A stretch of DNA of 11,024 bases from an uncultured bacterium. GTDB lineage: Bacteria > Patescibacteriota > Saccharimonadia > Saccharimonadales > Saccharimonadaceae. This document shows, piece by piece, positions 1 through 11,024 of this stretch. The stretch is taken from positions 1 through 11,024 of the forward strand of contig CALMQN010000047.1 in the NCBI GenBank assembly GCA_937872185.1, in the 5' to 3' direction. The stretch's first letter is position 1. Each line of letters begins with the position of its first letter. A program made the position numbers and the translations under genes. A model generated the notes under the pieces. It searched no databases and was not told where the DNA came from. It was given only the letters and a program-made list of their open reading frames with translations.

Positions 1-1407
1 AAGTTCGTAGTTGAACGACCCATACCGACTGGTGACGGATTTGAGTTGATCGTAAAAATCAGTCAGCAGGTTCGCGAGTGGTGCTTCAAAACTAATTAAT
101 GCTCGTTCGTCGATATAGCTTAAATTGTCCTGCTTACCGCGCTTATTAATGATTAGTTGTAGGACTGCACCAATATATGCCTGAGGCACGATGATCTCGC
201 CCTTGATCCAAGGTTCACGAATCTCACGGACACGGCTGACGTCGGGTAGCTCGCTGGCACTTTTAATGTCCAGATCATCACCAGCTGTCAGACTGACCTG
301 ATAATCAGTCGAGGGATTTGTGACCACCAAATCCAAATCATATTCGCGTTCAAGACGTTCACGAATAATGTCCATATGCAGCAGTCCCAAAAAGCCAATA
401 CGCACACCGAAACCAAGTACCGGCGAGTTCTCTGGTTCAAACTGCAGGGCCGAGTCACTCAAGCTCAGCTTTTCGATTGCATCCTTTAGGTCTTGATAGT
501 CATCGTTACTGACGGGAAAGAATCCAGCATAGACAAATGGTTTGACCAATTTATAACCTGGCAGCTGCGAGTCGGTATGCGAGCGCTTGGTCGTCACGGT
601 ATCACCGACGCGCGCGTCACGGGTCGTACGCAGGTTTGTCACGACATATCCGATCTCGCCCGTTGTTAGTTCGCCGCCTGGGCTCATGACTGGGTTGAGT
701 GAACCAACCTCGAGCGCCAGACCATTGGCGCTTGTGGCCATCATTTCAATGGTATCGCCTTTTTTGATACTGCCATCGACGACACGAATATACAAAATAA
801 CACCACGATAATCATCATAATAGCTGTCAAAAATGAGCGCACGTGTCGGTTGGGCGGCATCTCCTTGCGGCGGGGCAACACGATCAATCACAGCGTCCAA
901 TACATCAGTCACGCCCTCACCTGTTTTGGCACTAATCTTTAAAATGTCGTCTTCACTGCAACCAAGCAGATTAATAATTTCGGCGCTAACACGTGGCACA
1001 TCGGCAGCCGGCAAATCAATTTTATTCAGCACCGGTATGATCGTAAGGTCCGCCGCGAGTGCTAAATACACGTTTGCTAATGTCTGCGCCTGAATCCCTT
1101 GGCTGGCATCAACGACCAATATCGCACCTTCACAGGCCTGTAGCGATCGACTGACTTCATAACTAAAATCAACGTGGCCTGGTGTATCAATCAAGTTCAG
1201 ATCGATGCCCTTATACTTCATTCGAACAGGTGCCAACTTAATCGTGATACCTTTTTCTCGTTCCAAATCCATACTGTCGAGCAGCTGCGATTTCATGTCG
1301 CGTTTTTGAACAGTGCCGGTTAGCTCTAACATACGATCAGCAAGTGTCGACTTTCCGTGATCGATATGGGCAATAATACAAAAATTACGAATCTGATTCT
1401 GGTCCAT
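1..1407 (-). CDS. lepA: Elongation factor 4 (LepA), N-terminal 469 residues, cut by the window edge
   Basis: LepA is a ribosome-bound translational GTPase related to EF-G that acts on stalled or mis-translocated ribosomes. Reading leftward from the ATG at 1407, the protein starts MDQNQIRNF and shows all GTPase motifs: P-loop AHIDHGKST (residues 13-21), the switch I element GITIK, DTPGH, NKID and SAK. The later segment GFGVRIGFLGLLHMDII is characteristic of LepA/EF-G domain III, and the visible part ends in the TSRYGSFNYEL region of domain V. The stop and the LepA-specific C-terminal domain (about 130 residues) lie beyond position 1. The gene starts 2 bp after the murJ stop codon, with AGGT a few bases ahead of the ATG, so translation is probably coupled to murJ. 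It is the last visible gene of the minus-strand cluster. The family assignment is very secure. Confidence 0.97.
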   Translation of the reverse strand, partial: MDQNQIRNFCIIAHIDHGKSTLADRMLELTGTVQKRDMKSQLLDSMDLEREKGITIKLAPVRMKYKGIDLNLIDTPGHVDFSYEVSRSLQACEGAILVVDASQGIQAQTLANVYLALAADLTIIPVLNKIDLPAADVPRVSAEIINLLGCSEDDILKISAKTGEGVTDVLDAVIDRVAPPQGDAAQPTRALIFDSYYDDYRGVILYIRVVDGSIKKGDTIEMMATSANGLALEVGSLNPVMSPGGELTTGEIGYVVTNLRTTRDARVGDTVTTKRSHTDSQLPGYKLVKPFVYAGFFPVSNDDYQDLKDAIEKLSLSDSALQFEPENSPVLGFGVRIGFLGLLHMDIIRERLEREYDLDLVVTNPSTDYQVSLTAGDDLDIKSASELPDVSRVREIREPWIKGEIIVPQAYIGAVLQLIINKRGKQDNLSYIDERALISFEAPLANLLTDFYDQLKSVTSRYGSFNYEL

Positions 1408-1409
1408 AA

Positions 1410-3032
1410 TTACCTGACCCTAAATAACAATATCTTCTTGGCCCGATCCAAAATTGGTTTGACTTCACGGAGTCGTAATAAATGGCTGAATAATAAATAT
1501 GCCAGGCCACTCACCAAGCCGATTAACACGAATTTTGGAAAGCTGGCGAAGAAACTTTGGTCAGTCGCGCTCAACGGAAACAAAATCACCATAACATAGG
1601 TAACAGCAGCCATAAACCCAGTGGCGCTGGCCATGCGAGCAATAGCGTGAATAAATGGCCTGTCAAATAGTCCCTTGATACGACGCGACATCATGATGAA
1701 AAGAACGATCACTTCGATGACCGATACGATCGCTGCCGCCCAGGCCAGGCCATAGACACCCAGGCCAAGCCCCATCGTAAACCAAATCGCCAGCGAAATA
1801 TTGAGGCTAATCGTAAACAGCGAAATGTATAATGGCGTCCTGGTATCTTGCTGTGCATAAAAGCTACGAGCCGAGATATAGTAGATCGATCGAAACAGAA
1901 TCGTCACCGCCAAGATACCCAAAATACTCGCCATCAAAACATCACCACCATTGACGATAAAGTTTACTAAATAACCACGTCCAAAAAACGCGATGACTGT
2001 TGCCGGGAGTGCCAGCCAAATGATGACTCGAAGCACTGCTTGTAGCTCACTCTTAAATAAGTCGGGTCGGCCTTCACCCAATCGCTCGGCCATCTTTGGA
2101 AAAGCCGCCGTGCTGATTGCAACACCGATCAAATTCACTGGGGCATAGGCGAGCGTCGTGGCTTGTTGATACGCCGTAACGCTCCCTGCCAGCATACGCG
2201 ATGCCAGGTTGACTTCGACAATACCATTTACGTAATCAATACTTTGGTCAAGTGAACGGGGCGGGAGTAACGTCAGTACTTTACGAAAACCCTTATTTTT
2301 CCAGTAAATCTTAAAACGATAATCAAATCCCATACCGACCAGCCCAAGCGTTGCCACCAATAATTGCAAGACAGATCCCAACACTACACCCAGCGCTACG
2401 CCCATAATGCCGCCTTCAAACACTTGCCAGCCAAAAATATTAATCCCGTTTGTAAAAACCGTAATCCCGATGACGATACCAATATTGTATAAGATCGGAA
2501 CGAGTGCAAAGAACGTAAAACGCCCAATAGCTTGTTGCATGCTGGCGATGACAGTTGAAATGGCGAACAAGAATGGGCTAATGGCGATCACCCGCATCAT
2601 ACTGATCGCGAGAGCTCGACCCGATTCATCCAGTCCAGGACCAACCACATAGTGCACCAACGGTTCAGCAAAAATAATAATTAAAATGCTAGCAAGTAAC
2701 GTGATAAGCGCCATGAAATTAAGCAGGCTGGTCGAAAGCTCCCAGGCAGATCGCTTGTTGCCCGACGCCAGTCGTTGGGTAAAGACCGGGATAAATGTCA
2801 CGCTCAGCGCTCCAGACACCAAGATAATAAACATGAAGTCCGGGATAGTAAACGCTACCGCATAGGCATCGCGCCCCACCGGATAGGTTGTGTAGTACAG
2901 ACTGTTTAGTTGACGGTCACGGAACCACCCTAGCAAGCTGGCCAGCAGCGACGAGCCTGCTAAAAGCGCAGCTGCCAGCTGAAGTGGCAGCTTTGCATTG
3001 GCCCTTGCGACGGTGCTTTTAATGCGTGACAT
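1410..3032 (-). CDS. murJ: Lipid II flippase MurJ (MviN family)
   Basis: A 540-residue integral membrane protein of the MOP superfamily (MviN/MurJ), which moves the undecaprenyl-linked peptidoglycan precursor lipid II across the cytoplasmic membrane. The translation is a string of hydrophobic helices, consistent with the usual 14 membrane segments, joined by short loops. The N-terminal half has the family signature SGALSVTFIPVFTQRLASG (residues about 58-76), with the Arg and the Ser-Gly-Ala element typical of the central cavity. The positively charged N-terminus (SRIKSTVARANAK) is expected in the cytoplasm. Length is close to the usual 500-550 residues, so the gene appears intact. It begins 18 bp after the ftsH stop with only a weak AAGG ahead of the ATG, and ends 2 bp before lepA. 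This suggests the cell makes peptidoglycan. Confidence 0.95.
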   Translation of the reverse strand: MSRIKSTVARANAKLPLQLAAALLAGSSLLASLLGWFRDRQLNSLYYTTYPVGRDAYAVAFTIPDFMFIILVSGALSVTFIPVFTQRLASGNKRSAWELSTSLLNFMALITLLASILIIIFAEPLVHYVVGPGLDESGRALAISMMRVIAISPFLFAISTVIASMQQAIGRFTFFALVPILYNIGIVIGITVFTNGINIFGWQVFEGGIMGVALGVVLGSVLQLLVATLGLVGMGFDYRFKIYWKNKGFRKVLTLLPPRSLDQSIDYVNGIVEVNLASRMLAGSVTAYQQATTLAYAPVNLIGVAISTAAFPKMAERLGEGRPDLFKSELQAVLRVIIWLALPATVIAFFGRGYLVNFIVNGGDVLMASILGILAVTILFRSIYYISARSFYAQQDTRTPLYISLFTISLNISLAIWFTMGLGLGVYGLAWAAAIVSVIEVIVLFIMMSRRIKGLFDRPFIHAIARMASATGFMAAVTYVMVILFPLSATDQSFFASFPKFVLIGLVSGLAYLLFSHLLRLREVKPILDRAKKILLFRVR

Positions 3033-3050
3033 AGTGGGAGTACGCCTTGC

Positions 3051-4913
3051 TTAGTAGAGCTTGGCCTCCTTGGGAAGAACAGCATCTTTCAAAATCTTGA
3101 CGACACCAGTTTCTTCAATCGTTTCTTCTTTTAATAGCGCCTTAGCAAGTGCGTCCAAGCTTTTGCGGTTGGCCGTCAGGACTGCGCGCGCGCGAACACG
3201 CGCCTCTTCGACAAGCTTGCGCACTTCATCGTCGATCTTCGTAGCAGTATCTTCGCTGTACGGACGTTCGTGCGTCATCTTGTCAAACACCATGCCGCCG
3301 TTATCGTCGTGAAATACCTGATCGCGCAAAGTCGTTCCCATTCCCTGCTCGATAACCATATCGCGGGCAATTTCGGTTGCCTTACGAAGGTCTGACCCAG
3401 CACCTGTTGTAATACCATCTTTGCCATAGATGATCTCTTCGGCGATACGGCCGCCAAGTGCACGGGCCAAAACATCTTTAAATTCGTACACGTTTGTGTA
3501 ACTCGTATCTTCGGGCGGCAAGAACCACGTCACACCACCAGTACCACCACGCGGGATGATCGTTACTTTGTGTACAGGATCGCTGTCAGGCAAAATGTGG
3601 CCGACAATCGCATGACCCGCTTCGTGATACGCAGTCAGCTCTTTTTCTTTGTCATTCATGACCTTGGCTTTGCGTTCTGGGCCAATGGCAACTTTTTCAA
3701 AAGCTTCAGTCAGATCAGCGTTACTAATCTTTTTAGCGTTACGCCTAGCAGCAACAATCGCAGCCTCGTTGGCCATATTCGCCAAATCCGCACCTGATGA
3801 TCCAGCGGTCTTTGCCGCTAGCGCATCAATGTTAACTGTGTCGTCAACGGGTTTCTTCTTAAAGTGGACACGCAGAATCGCTTCACGGTCTTTGCGTTCA
3901 GGCAGCATAATGTTGGTGCGACGGTCAAAGCGACCTGGTCGCAGCAACGCTGGGTCCAACACGTCGGCACGGTTGGTTGCCGCCAGGACAATCACATTAG
4001 CGCCTGTTTCGAATCCATCCATCTCAACCAAAATTTGGTTAAGCGTTTGTTCGCGCTCGTCATGGCCCCCACCCATGCCGCTGCCACGTTTGCGGCCAAC
4101 AGCATCGATCTCATCAATAAAGATAATCGCCGGTGCGTTCTTTTTTGCTTTGGCAAAAAGATCGCGAACGCGCGAGGCACCAACACCCACAAACATTTCA
4201 ACAAATTCTGAACCACTAATTGAAAAGAATGGGACGTTTGCTTCGCCCGCGACCGCTCGCGCCAACAGTGTCTTACCAGTTCCCGGGTTACCCACCAGCA
4301 GAACGCCCGTTGGGATCTTGGCGCCAAGCGCCTCGTATTTCTTTGGGTGTTTTAGAAAGTCAACAACTTCTTCAAGATCCTGCTTGGCTGATTCATTACC
4401 GGCAATGTCGTCAAACACGACTTTTTCTTTGTCTTGACCGTATAGCTTCGCCTTTGACTTACCAAATCCTAGTGCCTGGTTGTTTTGGCCCTGTGCCTGA
4501 CGCATCATGAACATAAAGAACCCAGCGATCAGCAGAACGGGAATGATAATCGTAGCCAATGTCCAAACTGTATCCCCTGTCGTTGATGGCGGAACGACGT
4601 TAACGACAGCCTTGGTGTCTTTATTCAGGCCTTGTTCGTAAATGCTGCTGCCGGCTTCCTTGGTCGATTTTTCAGTTGCAGTATCACTGCCTTTTGGCGT
4701 GACTTTTACGTCGTTGCCTTGGATTTCGATCTTGCTGATCTCGCCAGCGTTGGCACGACTGATAACATCTGATATTGCAACTTCTTTTAAGTTATCGCGT
4801 GGTGCAGTGATGGCAACAACTGCCAGCACACCGAATACCAAGATTGCCCAAAACAAGCTTAGGCGAATAAAGTTAGTCGGTTTTTTGTTAGGGACGGGGG
4901 ATTTGATTGCCAT
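3051..4913 (-). CDS. ftsH: ATP-dependent zinc metalloprotease FtsH
   Basis: A membrane-anchored AAA+ protease that extracts and degrades misfolded or unassembled membrane proteins and some regulators; it acts as a hexamer facing the cytoplasm. Of 620 residues, two membrane helices (about 18-37 and 116-137) flank an extracytoplasmic domain. The AAA+ module has Walker A GNPGTGKT (208-215), pore loop FVGVGA (241-246), Walker B IIFIDEID (263-270), and the second region of homology [10 protein letters not shown] followed by RPGRFDR (325-331). The zinc site HEAGH is at 430-434, and Asp508 in [16 protein letters not shown] is the likely third ligand. Walker A carries Asn where most FtsH proteins have Pro (GPPGTGKT); catalytic residues are intact. 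The ATG at 4913 is the natural start, but the nearest purine-rich site (AAAGGAAC) lies about 15 nt upstream, farther than usual. A 54-bp gap to tilS may hold its own promoter. Confidence 0.98.
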
Positions 4914-4967
4914 AAAGAATTATCTGTTCCTTTCAGTCTATGGTTGCACAAGGGCTCTTACTCTGTC

Positions 4968-5801
4968 TTATTTTATCAGTTCCACCTTAAAATTACGAGA
5001 GGTGAAACTGAGTGTCACTGCAGATCCAGGCTGGTAAACCGAGCCGGGTTTTGCCGTTTTAATAGCCATCAGCGTCCGCCCCAGTTGCGGCCGAGTCAGT
5101 CGTGCGGCCGTAATAAACCGCAGGCACTCCATAGCTGCCGCTGGTTCAGCATGCGTAAAAAAATATCGGCCATAGTCGGGGCCGTCGCCAACCAGCGCTC
5201 GGACCTCTTGGTCAATATGCTGTTTGGTCGCCACCTGCTGAGCACGCAGTGCTAACAACTGTCGCTTCGTATCATCTTGCATTGGCTGGGCCTTAACGCG
5301 GATACGATTACGCAGATAAGCGTCACTCATATTGGTGCTGTCTTCGCGCCACTCTAGGCCATGCTCATTTGCATAGGCAATGATTTCGTCCTTACTCATA
5401 TCAAGTAGTGGCCGCACGATGTCTGAATCAAGCACGGCCAGTCCCCGCCAGCCAGTACCGCGCGTGACATTAATCGCGATCGTTTCGATACTGTCATCGG
5501 CGTGATGAGCCGTTGCAATTGGAGCATTGTGACGATGAGCAACCTCACGTAAAAAGGCGTACCGTCTGTCGCGCGCCAACTCCTCACTCGCCTGCTTGCC
5601 CAGTTCTTCGCGGACTGTTTCAAATACGGCACCGTAATGCCTGGCAAGACCCTGCACAAACGCAGCGTCCATAGCCGAATCGTCGCGAATGCCGTGATCA
5701 AAATGAGCAACGACAAGATCTTCGTACTGCTTCGAAAGCATATGAAGCAGTACAACAGAATCAACTCCGCCACTGACTGCTATAACTAAGCGTTTGTTCA
5801 T
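4968..5801 (-). CDS. tilS: tRNA(Ile)-lysidine synthetase TilS, compact form
   Basis: TilS converts cytidine 34 of tRNA-Ile2 (anticodon CAU) to lysidine using ATP and lysine, changing both amino-acid identity and decoding from AUG to AUA. The PP-loop ATP-pyrophosphatase motif is SGGVDS (residues 10-15), followed by the family motifs TAHHADDSIET, VTRGTGWRGL, RPLLDMSKDEIIAYA and DSTNMSDAYLRNRIR. I chose the ATG at 5801 (277 aa, MNKRLVIAVSGG) because the PP-loop then sits at the usual distance from the N-terminus. A TTG at 5819 in the same frame would add six residues; neither has a strong ribosome-binding site. Only the catalytic N-terminal part and a short helical tail are present; the extra C-terminal domains of longer TilS proteins (about 430 residues in Escherichia coli) are missing. 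The gene starts 23 bp after the polymerase stop. Confidence 0.93.
   Translation of the reverse strand: MNKRLVIAVSGGVDSVVLLHMLSKQYEDLVVAHFDHGIRDDSAMDAAFVQGLARHYGAVFETVREELGKQASEELARDRRYAFLREVAHRHNAPIATAHHADDSIETIAINVTRGTGWRGLAVLDSDIVRPLLDMSKDEIIAYANEHGLEWREDSTNMSDAYLRNRIRVKAQPMQDDTKRQLLALRAQQVATKQHIDQEVRALVGDGPDYGRYFFTHAEPAAAMECLRFITAARLTRPQLGRTLMAIKTAKPGSVYQPGSAVTLSFTSRNFKVELIK
4970..4975 (-). promoter_or_regulatory. Possible internal promoter for ftsH (extended -10)
   Basis: On the minus strand TGATAAAAT gives an extended -10 (TG, one base, TAAAAT). It overlaps the tilS stop codon and would start a transcript about 50 nt upstream of the ftsH ATG. No recognisable -35 lies 17 bp upstream (TCGTAA), so this rests on the -10 alone. 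An extra promoter would uncouple ftsH, a common stress gene, from the repair and tRNA genes ahead of it. Confidence 0.3.
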
Positions 5802-5824
5802 GTCTCTAGTATAGCCCAAGATCT

Positions 5825-7048
5825 CTAGAGGTATCTTGTGCTGCCAAACGGAATCTTTTGCTTTACAAAATCGCCCGTTTGCAGGGTATCTGCTGAATGC
5901 ACCGTCCGGTCACCGTACCGTCCATTAATCGTATCAATGGCACTCACCAACTGATGTTCACGCGCCAGCATATCGCCAAATAAACTGGTCTGCGGTTGAT
6001 CGTCGGTCGATAATTCGTAACAGTGCACCCCTATTTCGCGAATGTCACCAGGTGCCTTATAAAATAACCGCTCAGCCAGGCTATATATAGTCGCATCACT
6101 ATAGAAGGGAAGTTGTGCCATATGACTGGCATGCCAATAGCGTCGGTCCGCTGTTTTGGCATACACGTATACTCCCCTGGCTGCTTTGCCCTGACCGCGC
6201 AGTCGTGCCCCTACCGATTCACACAAATGGTGCAGGCGTTGCATGATTTGCTGCCTACTCAGGTCGCGGCGTTCCAACACGAACTGACGACCCACGCGCT
6301 TAATGTCAAACACGCGGTCATCTACCTCCCATCCCCGCAGTCGTTGGTGCCAATGCCCGCCCACGATACTTTTAAAGACTACTTTTTCAAGTGTCACCGG
6401 GTCGGTATCCAAAAACTGTAGGGGAGTAGTAATCCCGACTGCATTCAGGCGCGCTTCGTTATGATAGGCAATCCCCGTCAGGTCACGTAGCTTTAGGGTC
6501 GCCAGTACCGTTCGCAGGTTTTCGTGGTTGATCTCGTCTAACCCATCAGGTTTATGCAGCCCAGCCGCAGTCTTCGCCAAAAAACGATTCGTACTAATCC
6601 CCACGTTACAGCGCATGGCACAGCCAATCTCGTCCTTTAGGCGCTGCTTAATCTCGTGGCCTATCTCTACCAGCGACCGATCAATCGTTATCCCATAAAA
6701 ATCAATCACACCCTCATCGATACTTTTCATCGTAACGTGTGGCGAATAATCGTTCAAAATAGCGAGCAGCTTTTTATAGACAAATCGATATTTGGCCGGG
6801 TCGCTTTCGACGGCAATCAGGTCGGGGACTAGTAGTTTTGCCTGGGCGACTTTCATACCGACAACGACTCCCCGCGCCTTGGCTTCGTAACTGGCGGTCA
6901 CAATGGCCGTGTGTTCGGTCCGGCGGTTCACGACCACAACTGGGCGCCCACGCAGCATCGGCCGGGCCTGTTGTTCGGCCGTGGCAAATGCCGAGTTTAA
7001 GTCGACGTGCATCACCAGCGACTGCTCGCTATTATAATCAGTCCGCAT
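5825..7048 (-). CDS. dinB: Y-family translesion DNA polymerase (DinB/Pol IV-like)
   Basis: An error-prone polymerase of the DinB/UmuC family that bypasses damaged template bases. In the 407-residue product the palm carries the metal ligands Asp16 (HVDLNSAF) and Asp111-Glu112 (KSIDEGVIDF). Phe21 is the probable steric gate against ribonucleotides. YEAKARGVVVGM (54-65) and GISTNRFLAKTAAGLHKPDGL (150-170) are classic family blocks. The little-finger domain occupies roughly 250-345. QTSLF (353-357) fits a sliding-clamp-binding motif and is followed by the AIDTINGRYGDRTV segment common in this family. The ATG at 7048 has GAAGG eight bases upstream and is preferred; a GTG at 7063 in frame would add five residues. 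The start overlaps the end of the small upstream gene by 11 bp, implying translational coupling. I saw no LexA-type operator upstream, so SOS control is not shown. Confidence 0.93.
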   Translation of the reverse strand: MRTDYNSEQSLVMHVDLNSAFATAEQQARPMLRGRPVVVVNRRTEHTAIVTASYEAKARGVVVGMKVAQAKLLVPDLIAVESDPAKYRFVYKKLLAILNDYSPHVTMKSIDEGVIDFYGITIDRSLVEIGHEIKQRLKDEIGCAMRCNVGISTNRFLAKTAAGLHKPDGLDEINHENLRTVLATLKLRDLTGIAYHNEARLNAVGITTPLQFLDTDPVTLEKVVFKSIVGGHWHQRLRGWEVDDRVFDIKRVGRQFVLERRDLSRQQIMQRLHHLCESVGARLRGQGKAARGVYVYAKTADRRYWHASHMAQLPFYSDATIYSLAERLFYKAPGDIREIGVHCYELSTDDQPQTSLFGDMLAREHQLVSAIDTINGRYGDRTVHSADTLQTGDFVKQKIPFGSTRYL

Positions 7049-7307
7049 AATGATCGCCTTCACGCGTTAAGTGCCAGGTCAGCTGATGCGTATCCAGTTC
7101 GATGCGGTAATCTGCCTGGCCATCCGTCACGTCAAATATGTGCAATTCTCGCTTGCCCTGCGTGCTGGGATGGCGCAGGCCAATTTCGGTGATGGTCACT
7201 TCCCGCCCATTCGACCGCCTAAACTTGAGTGGGCGACACGGGTTTAGGCCTGTGCCAAATGTTGCAATCACATCAATACGTTCGTTCAAAAAAGTTTCGT
7301 CATTCAT
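7038..7307 (-). CDS. Small protein of unknown function, translationally coupled to dinB
   Basis: An 89-residue soluble protein starting MNDETFLNERIDVIATFG, with no signal peptide or membrane segment. The layout (N-terminal strand ERIDVIATF, a Pro-rich segment PCRPLKF, then RREVTITEIGLRH-like, LHIFDVTDG, YRIELD and LTWHL strands) suggests a compact all-beta fold. It faintly resembles short beta-rich proteins of the DUF6504 type found beside dinB genes in other bacteria; that resemblance is from memory and unverified. The ATG at 7307 has AGAGGA eight bases upstream, and a hairpin can cover that site. It is the first gene of the minus-strand cluster, and its stop overlaps the dinB start by 11 bp, so the two proteins are probably made together. 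A role as polymerase accessory is inferred from position only. Confidence 0.8.
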   Translation of the reverse strand: MNDETFLNERIDVIATFGTGLNPCRPLKFRRSNGREVTITEIGLRHPSTQGKRELHIFDVTDGQADYRIELDTHQLTWHLTREGDHYAD

Positions 7308-7541: not shown

Positions 7542-7618
7542 GGCACCGTAGCTCAGCTGGTTAGAGCGTAGGACTCATAAGCCTAAGGTCACAGGTTCGA
7601 GCCCTGTCGGTGCTACCA
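7542..7618 (+). tRNA. tRNA with anticodon CAU, probably elongator tRNA-Met
   Basis: A 77-base cloverleaf with encoded CCA. The acceptor stem GGCACCG pairs with CGGTGCT (G1-U72 wobble, discriminator A73). The D arm is GCTC/GAGC, the anticodon loop CTCATAA with CAU, and the T arm ACAGG-TTCGAGC-CCTGT. The anticodon stem TAGGA/GCCTA pairs at four positions but has an A31-G39 mismatch next to the loop. A CAU anticodon can belong to initiator Met, elongator Met or the lysidine-modified tRNA-Ile2. Initiator is excluded by the paired first base and the lack of the three G-C pairs in the anticodon stem. The body resembles elongator tRNA-Met more than tRNA-Ile2, but A4-U69 with C5-G68 leaves some doubt. 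It has its own promoter and terminator. Confidence 0.95.
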
Positions 7619-7725: not shown

Positions 7726-7866
7726 CTAGACGCTGAACGGACCGATGACATACAACGCGACGAATCCAAAGATCGCCACAAAGACAAGAATGATCTTGCC
7801 CGTTGAATGCCGGCGGAGCCACGACGTCAACTCCAGATACGGGTAAGTCTTTTTTGCTTTTGCCAC
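7726..7866 (-). CDS. 46-residue single-pass membrane protein, unknown function
   Basis: A very small protein starting from a GTG at 7866 with a strong ribosome-binding site (AAGGAG) six bases upstream; the frame is open further upstream but no other start has such a site. The N-terminal 23 residues are basic and aromatic (MAKAKKTYPYLEL, SWLRRHSTGK). A single hydrophobic helix (about 25-42, IILVFVAIFGFVALYVI) follows, with the short tail GPFSV. By the positive-inside rule the N-terminus is cytoplasmic. It has no signal-peptidase or lipobox motif. It stands alone, between the hairpin terminator at 7676-7698 and another terminator at 7989-8018, so it must have its own promoter; only a weak candidate (TATGAT at 7938-7933, poor -35) is visible. 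I do not recognise the family. Possible roles are a small subunit or regulator of a membrane complex, with no direct evidence. Confidence 0.75.
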   Translation of the reverse strand: MAKAKKTYPYLELTSWLRRHSTGKIILVFVAIFGFVALYVIGPFSV

Positions 7867-7873
7867 TAGTGGC
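7862..7873. repeat. Perfect 12-bp palindrome over the start of the 46-aa gene
   Basis: GCCACTAGTGGC reads the same on both strands. On the minus strand it spans the gap between the AAGGAG site and the GTG start codon and includes the start codon itself. It could be a protein-binding site or form a short RNA hairpin; either would affect initiation. A chance palindrome is also possible. Confidence 0.5.
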
Positions 7874-7988
7874 TCCTTACGGATCACGGCTGAGGTATCA
7901 GCGTCGGCCACCTTGGTCAACGAAAGAATACTATCATAATCGCGATAAAGACGCGAGCATATCCAATTTAAATGAAACCGGGGCAACA

Positions 7989-8018
7989 AAATAAGCCCAT
8001 GAAAGCGCGGGCTTATTT
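7989..8018 (-). terminator. Intrinsic terminator of the 52-aa gene
   Basis: AAATAAGCCC (7989-7998) and GGGCTTATTT (8009-8018) form a ten-pair stem around a ten-base loop. Leftward, the 3' arm runs into UUAUUUUGUU. It begins about 10 bp after the stop codon at 8029, and no plus-strand gene lies just upstream, so it serves the minus strand. Confidence 0.8.
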
Positions 8019-8326: not shown

Positions 8327-8356
8327 TTGACGGCTGTACCACGGTTATGCTATAAA
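8327..8356 (+). promoter_or_regulatory. Promoter of the membrane protein/ATP-cone/flavoprotein operon
   Basis: TTGACG (8327-8332) and TATAAA (8351-8356) at 18 bp spacing, with TGC directly before the -10. The start would be near 8363, about 23 nt ahead of the ATG at 8386. The AAGGAA at 8364-8369 sits almost at the RNA 5' end and too far from the ATG to be an ordinary ribosome-binding site. A small hairpin, TGGCA-AAAA-TGCCA, lies just upstream at 8300-8313. Confidence 0.65.
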
Positions 8357-8385
8357 TAAGCCTAAGGAAACAAAAAATAAACAGC

Positions 8386-9090
8386 ATGACTATCTTTGAA
8401 TCACTTGCAATTGTCGCCCTGGCTGGGCTTATTCACGCAAGTTTTCAATTGAGCGTCAGCGTCCTGACGCTGCTGAGCGGCCACTCAATTGGCGCCAAAC
8501 ATTCACAGGGCAAACTGCTACGCCTGACAACATCGTTCGTCCTGGGAGCTGGTCTGATGACCCTGCTGCTATTATCGTTCATTTCACTAATGTTACTGAG
8601 CGTCTTTGGTGCTGATACACCTCAAATCGTCTGGGCAATGGCCTGTGGACTGCTGTTTGGTGTTGGTGTGGCTGTCTGGTTGTTTTATTACCGGAAAGAG
8701 AAGGGGACAGCGCTATGGATCCCCCGTCCAGTCGCCTCTTTTTTGAGTGAACGAACCAAAGCAACTAAACGAAGCGCCGAGGCCTTTAGCCTAGGGCTTA
8801 CGGGTGTCATCGGTGAAGTCATCTTTATCATCGCACCAATTATCGTCAGTGCCCTGGTATTAATCAACCTGGATCCCCTTTGGCAGCTTGCTGGCATTGG
8901 TATATACACTGTCGTTTCCCTATTGTCACTGATTATCGTCTGGGTCCTGGTGGGCAGCGGACACAAGCTTAGCAACATTCAAAAATGGCGTGAATCAAAC
9001 AAATACTTTTTGCAGTTTGCGGCCGGCAGTGGCATGTTAATCCTGGGATTTTATGTATACGTTGCACAAGTCGTTGCGGGGGTAATGTAG
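8386..9090 (+). CDS. Six-helix integral membrane protein, unknown function
   Basis: A 234-residue protein with six strongly hydrophobic segments at about 5-27, 46-75, 80-101, 132-160, 165-190 and 208-232. Positive charges cluster in the loops after helices 1, 3 and 5 (GHSIGAKHSQGKLLR; YYRKEKG and SERTKATKRS; GHKLSNIQKWRESNK), and acidic or neutral residues in the others. This predicts both termini outside and a central cytoplasmic loop of about 30 residues, a 3+3 arrangement as in small exporter folds of the LysE or DsbD/CcdA kind. It has a single cysteine (in WAMACG), so a thiol electron carrier like CcdA is unlikely. No family is recognised with confidence. The ATG lacks a well-spaced ribosome-binding site. 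It is first in an operon with an ATP-cone protein and a flavoprotein, and its stop directly abuts or lies just before the next start. Confidence 0.85.
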   Translation: MTIFESLAIVALAGLIHASFQLSVSVLTLLSGHSIGAKHSQGKLLRLTTSFVLGAGLMTLLLLSFISLMLLSVFGADTPQIVWAMACGLLFGVGVAVWLFYYRKEKGTALWIPRPVASFLSERTKATKRSAEAFSLGLTGVIGEVIFIIAPIIVSALVLINLDPLWQLAGIGIYTVVSLLSLIIVWVLVGSGHKLSNIQKWRESNKYFLQFAAGSGMLILGFYVYVAQVVAGVM

Positions 9091-9099
9091 GTGGGCTCA

Positions 9100-9375
9100 G
9101 TGATTGATATTGTTAAAAGCGATGGCAGCCGGCCAAGTGAAAGTTTTTCAAGGGATAAACTGCATGCCAGTATCGTTGCCGCCTGTCTGAGCGTCCGCAC
9201 GCCTGTTGGTCAAGCCGAGGCAATCGCCAGCGCCGTGACCGATGCCGTCGTATCCTGGCTGGAAAGCAAACCCGAAGTCACTAGTCATGACCTGCGACGC
9301 ATTGCCGCCAGTCATCTGCATACCCATCATCCCGACGCAGCCTACATTTATCAACAACATCGGATAACGATGTAA
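9100..9375 (+). CDS. Stand-alone ATP-cone domain protein
   Basis: The whole product (91 residues) is one ATP-cone, the nucleotide-binding regulatory domain known from ribonucleotide reductases (NrdA, NrdD) and the repressor NrdR. Visible landmarks are the N-terminal IVKSDGSRPSESFSRDKL (family pattern V-K-R-D-G, E-x-F, KL), the helix ASIVAAC, the mid-domain helix AVTDAVVSWLE, VTSHDLRRIAASHL, and the closing PDAAYIYQQHR. The usual Arg of KRDG is Ser here; the Lys remains. There is no zinc ribbon as in NrdR and no reductase domain. The GTG at 9100 has AGGTGG five bases upstream and is preferred; a GTG at 9091, directly after the membrane-protein stop, would add three residues. It sits 14 bp ahead of the flavoprotein, suggesting a nucleotide-sensing partner for it; that role is inferred. 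Confidence 0.85.
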   Translation: MIDIVKSDGSRPSESFSRDKLHASIVAACLSVRTPVGQAEAIASAVTDAVVSWLESKPEVTSHDLRRIAASHLHTHHPDAAYIYQQHRITM

Positions 9376-9389
9376 CAGGAGACCAGACA

Positions 9390-10760
9390 ATGGCAACAAA
9401 GAACGTATTTGATTATGACCTGATTGTTATCGGTAGCGGCGCCGGCGGAAGTGCTGCTGCGACCATTGCTGCCCGGGCTGGTAAGCGCGTTGCCATTATT
9501 GAAGCTGACACATTTGGTGGTGATTCGCCGAACTGGGGCGATGTCCCGACCAAAGCCTTATTGCACGCCGCACATTTGTACGATGAAGCCCGACACGGCG
9601 CACGCTTTGGTCTGCGTTCTAGCACGCTCGGATACAATTATCCATCACTGCGCACTTGGAAAGATTTGGCCGTACAGCGCACCGGTGCCGGCGGCAACCG
9701 TCGTTATTATGAAAACCAAGGCATCAGTGCCTTTAGCGGAACGGCGCACTTTTTGTCGCCCAACGAAATCAGCATCAACCGCCGCCATTTATCTGCCAGC
9801 AAGTTTTTGATTGCCACTGGATCAAGTTGGATTGTCCCCGACGTTCAGGGTCTAACTGACATTACTTATCTGACGCCTCGCACCATTTTAGAATCAATTC
9901 GTCCGCCCAAAAGCCTGTTTATTATTGGCGGCGGGGGAGTCGGCGTTGAAATTGCCCAGCTGATGGCCATTTTTGGGACAAAAGTATACATAGGGGAGAA
10001 GGCAAGTCGTATACTCCCCCACCAAGATCCCGAAGTTGGGGCTCTGATGGAACGCGTATTATCTGAACAAAAAGGCATTACCAGTCTGACGCAAACGCGC
10101 GTTGTATCAGTTACCAAAGAAGGCCTTGGCAAACGCGTTATCATATCACGTGGCGGTGTTGAAAAATCAGTCCGTGTTGACGAAGTACTCATTGCTGCCG
10201 GACGCGCGCCAAATGTCGACCTAGGGCTAGAAAATGCCGGTGTTAAATACACCCCCAAAGGCATCGACGTTAACGACCAATTGCAGACTAGCGTCAAACA
10301 TATCTTTGCTGCCGGCGATGTGCTGGGTCGCGACAGCCATACCCACACCGCCCTATTAGAAAGCCGTATTGCAGCCAATAACATTTTGCACAAAACCAAG
10401 GTTGCGCCCGATTATACAGCCACACCAGGCGTCATATTCACCTATCCTGGTATCGCGCAGGTTGGCCTGTCCGAAGATGATTGTCTGAAGCGCGACCTAT
10501 CGATTAACAAGGCAATCGCCCCGCTTAACAGCATCACCCGATCAAATACATCCGATTTTCGCGATGGGTTTGTCAAAATTATCACCGATAAAAAAGGTGT
10601 CATTTTGGGGGCAACCGTTGTCGCCCCACATGCCGCAGAAATGATCCACGAACTGGCTCTTGCGATCAAACATGGTATGACAGCAGACGACATTGCGCAA
10701 ACGCCACATGCTTTCTTGTCCTGGTCAGAAGCAATCAAGATTGCCGCCGGCAAACTTTAA
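9390..10760 (+). CDS. FAD/NAD-dependent oxidoreductase of the lipoamide dehydrogenase/mercuric reductase fold lacking redox cysteines
   Basis: A 456-residue flavoprotein with the full class I pyridine nucleotide-disulfide reductase layout. The FAD-binding GSGAGG is at 15-20, ATGS at 143-146 and the second FAD motif FAAGD at 306-310. The NAD-binding fold GGGGVG spans 180-185, with Glu203 at the end of the second strand favouring NADH. A C-terminal dimerisation domain runs from about 340. The redox motif, normally GGxCxNxGCxPxK, reads GGDSPNWGDVPTK (43-55): both cysteines are replaced, by Ser46 and Asp51. The C-terminal HPTxxE-type motif reads FLSWSE, with Phe442 in place of the catalytic His and Glu447 kept. 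Cys365 is the only cysteine. It therefore cannot do dithiol chemistry; a flavin-based NADH oxidase, quinone reductase or diaphorase activity, or a regulatory role, is more likely. ATG 9390 has AGGAG nine bases upstream. Confidence 0.93.
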   Translation: MATKNVFDYDLIVIGSGAGGSAAATIAARAGKRVAIIEADTFGGDSPNWGDVPTKALLHAAHLYDEARHGARFGLRSSTLGYNYPSLRTWKDLAVQRTGAGGNRRYYENQGISAFSGTAHFLSPNEISINRRHLSASKFLIATGSSWIVPDVQGLTDITYLTPRTILESIRPPKSLFIIGGGGVGVEIAQLMAIFGTKVYIGEKASRILPHQDPEVGALMERVLSEQKGITSLTQTRVVSVTKEGLGKRVIISRGGVEKSVRVDEVLIAAGRAPNVDLGLENAGVKYTPKGIDVNDQLQTSVKHIFAAGDVLGRDSHTHTALLESRIAANNILHKTKVAPDYTATPGVIFTYPGIAQVGLSEDDCLKRDLSINKAIAPLNSITRSNTSDFRDGFVKIITDKKGVILGATVVAPHAAEMIHELALAIKHGMTADDIAQTPHAFLSWSEAIKIAAGKL

Positions 10761-11024
10761 GATCGGCTAAGCTTCCCTACTCCAAATGGCTCCTCGCGAG
10801 TAATCTCTCCTCTACGGATCATGCTATCCAGCTCTTCGCCCAAGTAGAAGCGCTCGATGCCATTTTGCGTGGCCAGCCCCAGTAACTGTTGATACGTGAG
10901 CGCAATTTCGCCGACGAACACATCGCCCAAGAACCGTTGCGCCTGTTCACGAGGCGACAATTGCACCTGTTCGCGCGTAGTGGTGATGTCGCCTGAAGGC
11001 ACGCCCAACGCTATCGATCCGACA
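10757..11024 (-). CDS. C-terminal part of an unknown protein, cut by the window edge
   Basis: An open frame enters from the right edge and ends at TAA 10757, giving at least 89 residues. No stop precedes it within the window, so the TTG at 11008 need not be the start. The visible part is hydrophilic and mostly helical in character (SPREQAQRFLGDVFVGE, LTYQQLLGLATQNGIERF, EELDSMIRRGEITREE), with no cysteine, membrane helix or motif I recognise. It converges on the flavoprotein gene, and the two stop codons overlap in a TTAA shared by both strands. There is no room for a terminator between them, so convergent transcripts must overlap. Its coding nature is supported only by the long open frame up to the edge. 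Confidence 0.6.
   Translation of the reverse strand, partial: VGSIALGVPSGDITTTREQVQLSPREQAQRFLGDVFVGEIALTYQQLLGLATQNGIERFYLGEELDSMIRRGEITREEPFGVGKLSRS

Follow-up and report, generated by a model that had tools for sequence, protein, structure and literature searches.

A three-gene operon of Saccharimonadaceae joins a free ATP-cone to a CcdA-like membrane protein and a flavoprotein, both without their redox cysteines

Introduction

What does a redox unit do once the residues that made it work are gone? The question is raised by a window of 11,024 nucleotides from an uncultured bacterium of the family Saccharimonadaceae (contig CALMQN010000047.1 of assembly GCA_937872185.1; by the window we mean this whole stretch), in which three adjoining genes on the plus strand encode a membrane protein of 234 residues (8386..9090), a stand-alone ATP-cone of 94 residues (9091..9375) and a flavoprotein of 456 residues that uses flavin adenine dinucleotide (FAD) and is of the type that uses reduced nicotinamide adenine dinucleotide (NADH) (9390..10760). 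CcdA and the disulfide reductases both work through their cysteines. An initial annotation of this DNA, made from the letters alone, had read the operon as a nucleotide-responsive switch of an NADH oxidoreductase, possibly at the membrane. That reading is incomplete, as it missed that the membrane protein appears to descend from CcdA and that the unit looks like a thiol relay that has lost its thiols. The clade has shed the cysteines from each of the four sites and still retains the unit, which suggests that the scaffold has another job.

Results

The window's membrane protein matches no Pfam or NCBIfam family above cut-off, and the CcdA family PF02683 is not listed for it. A profile of 27 sequences that includes this protein (A1) was used to find distant homologues, and those outside the family carry both CcdA cysteines, in the motifs SINPCAIGVL of helix 1 and VELPCTGAP of helix 4. 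Aligned by hhalign with the cysteine-type profile A3, profile A1 matches over 220 columns with a probability of 99.4% and an E-value of 1e-21. Two cysteine-type homologues were scanned, of which that of locus L118 passes PF02683 (33.4 vs 27.1 bits) and that of L124 fails, and many relatives of these homologues are labelled CcdA by their sources. An AlphaFold2 model of the window's protein (mean predicted local distance difference test score, pLDDT, 91.6) is all helical with about six membrane spans, and its helices are predicted to break at residues 18-22 and 143-145, which are the former cysteine sites; a PDB sequence search with the membrane profiles gave nothing convincing. By these alignments, we conclude that the membrane protein descends from CcdA.

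The alignment with the cysteine-type homologues places the 'PC' of the CcdA helix-1 motif NPC at Q21-L22 (8446..8451) and the helix-4 'ELPC' at E144-F147 (8815..8826), where the glutamate is retained, so that the window has L22 and F147 at the two positions of the redox cysteines. Neither site is a cysteine in any of the 72 aligned family copies: site 22 carries Leu in 71 copies and Val in one, site 147 Phe in 67, Ile in three and Leu in two, and 67 of the 72 rows have no cysteine within three residues of either site. Other polar residues are held, with E144 and R202 present in 72/72 rows and Q21 in 65/72. G107, W201, E203 and K206 are invariant among 67 near-family and cysteine-type rows (alignment A4), and across the whole family G107 is found in 62, W201 in 65 and K206 in 65 of the 72 rows. 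Read directly from the sequence, basic loops lie at about residues 32-46, 101-131 and 191-207, which by the positive-inside rule should face the cytoplasm, and the four loop residues are candidates for a site at which the cone and the flavoprotein dock.

The flavoprotein carries the domains Pyr_redox_2 (PF07992) and Pyr_redox_dim (PF02852) and has the disulfide-reductase/mercuric-reductase fold, its nearest PDB chains being 4ywo and 5x1y (E about 1e-70), with mercuric reductases and dihydrolipoamide dehydrogenases closest. Alignment with these two solved relatives puts the former CxxxxC active site at S46..D51 (9525..9542): the window reads GGDSPNWGDVP against GGTCVNVGCVP in 4ywo, so that the redox-active motif is SxxxxD and D51 stands in place of the flavin-side cysteine. 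Among 68 family rows without the cysteines (L127, L056, L059 and L073 are left out of this count), the flavin-side residue is Asp in 64, Glu in two and Asn in two, and in the conservation ranking of the 456 positions, position 51 comes 54th and position 46 comes 219th. Such an aspartate, once acquired and then retained, suggests a chemical role more than drift. The FAD motif GxGxxG and the acidic NADH-type residue are each present in 72/72 Cys-less rows, and the NAD motif GxGxx[GA] in 63/72. Of the terminal His-Glu pair, the window has Phe at the His site and keeps the Glu; this site is Phe in 59/72 Cys-less rows, and Phe or Tyr in 14 relatives that have CxxxxC.

The closest full-length named matches of the flavoprotein, at 86% identity, are from Candidatus Saccharibacteria, and source labels of its relatives are mercuric reductase, dihydrolipoamide dehydrogenase or plain NAD(P)/FAD-dependent oxidoreductase. 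The first two labels are unsupported, as the scores are below cut-off and the cysteine motifs are lost: the MerA model gives 363.5 bits against a cut-off of 454.45, and the MerA cysteine motifs are absent from a protein that has a single cysteine, while the lipoamide dehydrogenase model also scores under its cut-off. Our analysis thereby corrects these labels. The NCBIfam model of soluble transhydrogenase reaches 241.6 bits against a cut-off of 465, and the protein has SxxxxD and no CXXXXT.

The cone passes Pfam PF03477 (33.5 vs 25.8 bits), its model (pLDDT 83.3) matches the cones of NrdR, NrdB, NrdD and NrdA with a Foldseek probability of 1.00 (best E 0.0087), and its profile aligns with Streptomyces coelicolor NrdR (7p37; E 0.0083). 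In that protein, mutation of V48, K50, E56 and K62 cuts nucleotide binding (PMC12176259), and by alignment to 7p37 the putative counterparts in the window are I7, K9, E17 and K23 (9115..9159). The window's protein is not itself an NrdR, having no Zn-ribbon (94 residues, one cysteine) and only 16.6 bits against the 124.65 of TIGR00244; a second cone in the window's genome, in a frame of 153 residues at C40, is probably NrdR. We thus see an ATP-cone free of both ribonucleotide reductase (RNR) and NrdR. A cone outside nucleotide reduction is also present in archaeal 2-phosphoglycerate kinase. Across the phylum, 286 genomes were sampled; the cone profile has a match (E<=1e-8) in 19 of them, and 14 of these 19 belong to the window's family. 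Another free ATP-cone, of 80 residues, is found in a distant Patescibacterium (L215, 4020-4259, plus strand), and in the surrounding 8 kb no comparable membrane protein or flavoprotein was seen by eye.

Eight outgroup loci (L118-L125) contain a longer operon, composed of a gene that we call 'up', a CcdA gene with both cysteines, the cone and a flavoprotein with CxxxxC; the cone is present in seven of the eight and was not found in L122. The 'up' product is predicted to lie outside the cell, tied to the membrane by an anchor. Its alignment of 11 sequences (A6; for example L118 4171-5172 and L124 6631-7569) shows four invariant cysteines together with conserved HWH and HEH motifs, and in these 11 loci the 'up' gene adjoins the cysteine-type CcdA gene. 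Two 'up' proteins were scanned and gave no Pfam or NCBIfam family above cut-off. Within the class, 'up' occurs in 10 of 238 genomes, none of which is of the window's family, and three loci outside the class (L129-L131) have up, CcdA and cone with no flavoprotein nearby. A divergent P-type ATPase gene lies beside the operon in L118, L119, L124 and L125; a search gave a Ca-type ATPase as best match for that of L124, and we take those of L118, L119 and L125 to be P-type ATPases by our own reading.

How the relay came to lose its thiols can be read from intermediate forms. Six family loci keep the CxxxxC of the flavoprotein (L039, L043, L046, L050, L054 and L061), and their membrane sites are not cysteines, so that the membrane cysteines were lost first; the expectation that the membrane cysteines persist wherever the flavoprotein keeps CxxxxC fails at the two sites. 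When the motif columns are excluded from tree building, three changes are counted for the flavoprotein cysteines and two for those of the membrane protein (trees leave out L073, L076-L079 and L059). The tree supports an order in which the flavoprotein disulfide went last, after the CcdA cysteines and the outside protein. A second family has the same gene order without both cysteine pairs, in L127 (EPL in the membrane protein, SxxxxV in the flavoprotein) and L214 (NPF and NxxxxT), where the NP of NPC is still readable in L214 and Thr stands at its flavin-side site; the two membrane proteins score 53.4 and 53.0 bits against the cysteine-type profile. The second family apparently lost both pairs independently, and it appears that two lineages or more have shed the thiols of the relay, in an order that can be read. 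Beside the operon of this family there is a short ATPase remnant (L127 6711-7727, 339 residues; L214 1953-2996, 348 residues), which matches P-type ATPase models in L127 and is assigned by resemblance in L214.

The three genes travel together in the window's family. Excluded from the counts are duplicates (L002, L080-L083), fragments (L086, L087) and L074 and L075, which are ordinary cysteine-containing paralogues. The 30 nearest family loci have the three genes in the same order, with about 1.16 kb between cone and flavoprotein in L028/L082. Among 47 more distant family loci with the flavoprotein, 41 have all three; of the other six, L059 lies at a contig end, no neighbours were found in L063, L067 and L073, and in L076 and L078 the membrane gene is present and no cone was detected in the gap of about 300 bp. 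Among the loci of named genomes, all three genes are found in 46 of 53, the remainder being contig ends (L181, L183, L184, L189) or other organisms (L187, L188, L190). Neighbouring genes frequently overlap by 4 bp or stand a few bases apart. The operon is also present in the complete genome of the Saccharibacterium TM7i (L179). By hand tally, the membrane gene is present in 139 of 147 family genomes versus a homologue in 11 of 97 others of the class, and the 53 family genomes in which both the membrane protein and the flavoprotein were looked for divide into 49 with the two of them, three with neither, one with the flavoprotein only and none with the membrane protein only (Fisher p 1.7e-4 for co-occurrence, kinship not corrected). 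A contig titled Pedobacter sp. (L185) carries a Saccharibacteria-type operon with 77% identity, which is probably a binning error.

The ratios of nonsynonymous to synonymous substitution rates (dN/dS) are low, at 0.02-0.16 for the flavoprotein (10 measurable of 11 pairs), 0.05-0.13 with one value of 0.35 for the membrane protein (8 of 11) and 0-0.38 for the cone (6 of 11), most of them being rough, with dS >1 in all pairs except L009/L010.

The operon is preceded by a promoter that we read directly from the sequence (8327..8356), with a -35 box TTGACG (8327-8332), an 18-bp spacer ending in TGC, which provides an extended TGn, and a -10 box TATAAA (8351-8356). The cone's GTG start codon immediately follows the TAG of the membrane gene (gap 0 bp), and 14 bp separate cone and flavoprotein. 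We scored the 120 bp upstream of 37 of the 46 named loci with all three genes: the top site reaches at least 10/13 in 31 of the 37 versus 8.6% of 740 letter shuffles, and 31/37 best sites end 25-32 bp ahead of the start codon. A separate, standard promoter scan does not list the window's own promoter, as its -10 box has to end in T.

Much of what the initial annotation had described is borne out by these results: three genes behind one promoter with gaps of 0-14 bp, a free ATP-cone, an NADH-type flavoenzyme whose CxxxxC has become SxxxxD, and, as far as the model predicts, about six membrane helices. The co-conservation on which it had made its proposal depend is seen in the named loci and in the 49 of 53 genomes that have both membrane protein and flavoprotein. 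Its wording 'without thiols' and 'cysteine-less' holds for the redox positions and not for the whole proteins, each of which has one cysteine (membrane protein C87, cone C32, flavoprotein C365).

In the remainder of the window, a tRNA-Met gene with anticodon CAT was found by ARAGORN and Rfam (7542-7618, plus strand), and the minus-strand cluster at 1-7063 encodes what we take to be LepA/EF4, MurJ, FtsH, TilS and a Y-family polymerase; the cluster is noted at L081 (15271-19001) as well. TilS and FtsH adjoin the operon in the second family too (L127 9178-10999; L214 1-1569), so that the local synteny looks old. Two small minus-strand frames (7726-7989, 87 residues; 10757-11008, 83 residues) have no Pfam or NCBIfam match above cut-off. 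The window's draft genome comprises 653 kb and is 85.75% complete.

Discussion

Homology, gene order, the absence of cysteines at the redox sites and the kept cofactor motifs can be read from the sequences. A three-protein core that is nearly universal in one family after the loss of its thiols suggests that an old relay has been put to a new use without sulfur, and a nucleotide-responsive NADH unit, possibly at the membrane, as first envisaged for this locus, may still be a plausible reading. Our tentative proposal, to which we give somewhat less than an even chance, is a membrane-docked redox unit that descended from a CcdA-type transmembrane thiol relay, with an NADH/FAD enzyme and the cone as its regulator. 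For the ancestor we infer a path in which electrons from NAD(P)H would have passed to the CxxxxC flavoprotein, on to the two cysteines of CcdA and finally to an extracytoplasmic cysteine protein, with a free ATP-cone in the same operon that presumably exerted nucleotide-responsive control. The window's family would then have lost the CcdA cysteines together with the outside protein, and afterwards the flavoprotein disulfide, Asp taking the place of the flavin-side cysteine. In its present form, the flavoprotein most likely accepts hydride from NADH on its FAD and passes it on directly from the flavin, as may be expected by analogy with soluble transhydrogenase, which works without a disulfide. 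As the terminal His was already Phe or Tyr in the CxxxxC relatives, as in transhydrogenase, a reaction directly from the flavin is the simplest continuation. D51 would, judging from its aligned position, supply a polar or acid group near the flavin. The flavoprotein may form a complex with the CcdA-fold protein by docking on its basic cytoplasmic loops, and the cone may switch docking or activity in response to ATP or deoxy-ATP (dATP) in those lineages in which the nucleotide residues are intact. D51 of the flavoprotein and E144, R202 and Q21 of the membrane protein are the residues that we name as candidates for such functions.

Several observations weigh against this proposal. As the membrane model has no clear relative among solved structures, the fold assignment depends on the sequence comparison; no CcdA entry is among the 50 structure matches listed, which is no evidence against a CcdA fold. 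The nucleotide-responsive switch of the initial annotation is affected in part: the window's cone keeps the NrdR contact residues, and of 80 rows, with the outgroups among them, no more than 56 have K9/E17/K23 intact (the truncated L059 was scored as not intact). The losses fall mainly in deep subclades, where the operon itself is retained, so that nucleotide sensing is not universal and a switch cannot be the whole function. The GD motif of the flavoprotein is kept in 56/72 Cys-less rows and altered in 16/72, and one genome (G095) has the flavoprotein without the membrane gene and the cone. In L039, L043, L054 and L056 there is a cysteine three residues before the helix-1 site, and in L061 one adjoins the helix-4 site. 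CxxxxC persists in the flavoprotein of four of these five loci, and a displaced thiol contact is possible in all five, while L046 and L050 have no near-site cysteine. Two further loci keep an 'up' protein with its four cysteines beside membrane sites without cysteine, namely L191, which has a CxxxxD flavoprotein and a cone scoring 94 bits, and L192; the membrane proteins of both match the CcdA profile only weakly (26.9 bits in L191, 12.8 bits in L192). The 'up' cysteines therefore need not be the substrate of the relay. Moreover, a tree that includes L191 needs four changes, and a single clade of all Asp rows is not rejected (approximately unbiased test, p 0.157).

A bolder version of the proposal would be a sulfur-free transmembrane device, in which the FAD enzyme passes reducing equivalents via Asp51 to a small non-thiol carrier, the CcdA-fold protein moves this carrier across the membrane, and the cone acts as a nucleotide brake that can detach. 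We regard this version as improbable; if true, a redox system with the CcdA fold would operate without cysteines, and the cone would be a rare case of an ATP-cone outside nucleotide reduction. A general respiratory role is unsupported: of 101 family genomes, 40 have COX1, and a search of the window's own genome, which is 86% complete, did not find it.

The alternative that survives best, unlikely as we consider it, is a sensor instead of an enzyme: the flavoprotein would report NADH/NAD+ and the cone ATP/dATP, and both would gate a CcdA-fold carrier of a small solute. CcdA is a member of a transporter-like fold class, and the invariance of E144 and R202 and the retention of Q21 would suit a carrier, as would the fact that the operon is retained in some members with altered NAD or GD motifs. 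Catalysis nevertheless fits better with the fully conserved FAD motif and acidic NADH-type residue and with the strongly conserved D51.

With a lower probability, the flavoprotein could be a soluble transhydrogenase, NADH oxidase or diaphorase that passes hydride to nicotinamides or oxygen, the membrane protein serving as an anchor only. To our knowledge, SthA has no membrane partner and no linkage to a cone, so that the association found here would be without counterpart. Its family has Thr at the flavin-side site, which is also seen in L214, whereas the window's family has Asp, and the NCBIfam score lies far under the cut-off. The likeness is in the chemistry: a transhydrogenase study (PMC9460512) describes enzymes that work with CXXXXT, use FAD directly and have Tyr replacing the terminal His, comparable to SxxxxD and the prevalent Phe in our family, and it also describes effects of adenine nucleotides on transhydrogenases.

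That the unit is still a thiol system, with other cysteines or a small thiol carrying the electrons, we hold to be rather remote. One cysteine is left in each window protein, the five loci named above have one near a former membrane site, and the window's genome has VKOR, the oxidising side of extracytoplasmic disulfide chemistry; against this stand the lack of a second cysteine for a disulfide within any window protein and the 67 of 72 family membrane rows that are cysteine-free around the sites.

Even less probable is a cone that regulates RNR in trans and shares the operon by chance. RNR was detected in 66 of 101 family genomes, and in raw counts cone integrity goes with its presence (44 intact and 7 degraded cones with RNR, 8 intact and 12 degraded without; Fisher p 1.9e-4). 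The rows are non-independent, however, and the tree-paired test gave no support (5 pairs, no power); kinship may lie behind the association. The cone is also intact in near-complete genomes in which no RNR was detected, G010 among them, and the cone gene is tightly spaced with its two neighbours. Finally, a functionless, decaying relic of a thiol relay would account for the stepwise loss of cysteines, outside protein and, in some clades, nucleotide residues, but this is very hard to maintain, and decay of the unit is unlikely, since dN/dS is well below 1 in every measurable pair (with mostly saturated dS), the FAD motif is complete in 72/72 rows, the membrane gene is kept in nearly all family genomes, the promoter is conserved and Asp is held at site 51.

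No description of the operon was found in the literature searched, which consisted of open-licence papers only, so that this absence is weak evidence; the main text of PMC10633639 has no mention of oxidoreductase, ATP-cone, flavo or NADH.

Our proposal of a membrane-docked NADH/FAD unit can be set beside four known systems. With CcdA and the transmembrane domain of DsbD (PF02683), the membrane protein shares homology over 220 columns, the same length, the Glu of the helix-4 ELPC motif and predicted helix breaks at the two former cysteine sites; it differs in lacking both redox cysteines and an outside cysteine protein in its operon. The cone resembles those of RNR and NrdR (PF03477) in a sequence score above cut-off, in fold and in its aligned nucleotide-contact residues, whereas it is a free protein without an RNR body or a Zn-ribbon, in an operon with a membrane protein and a flavoprotein. 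With the class I flavoprotein disulfide reductases, the flavoprotein has in common the fold, the FAD and NADH motifs and the dimer domain, and it departs from them in SxxxxD for CxxxxC and in Phe at the terminal His site. Like SthA, it would function without a disulfide and has an aromatic residue at the terminal His site, and unlike SthA, which has CXXXXT, it carries SxxxxD.

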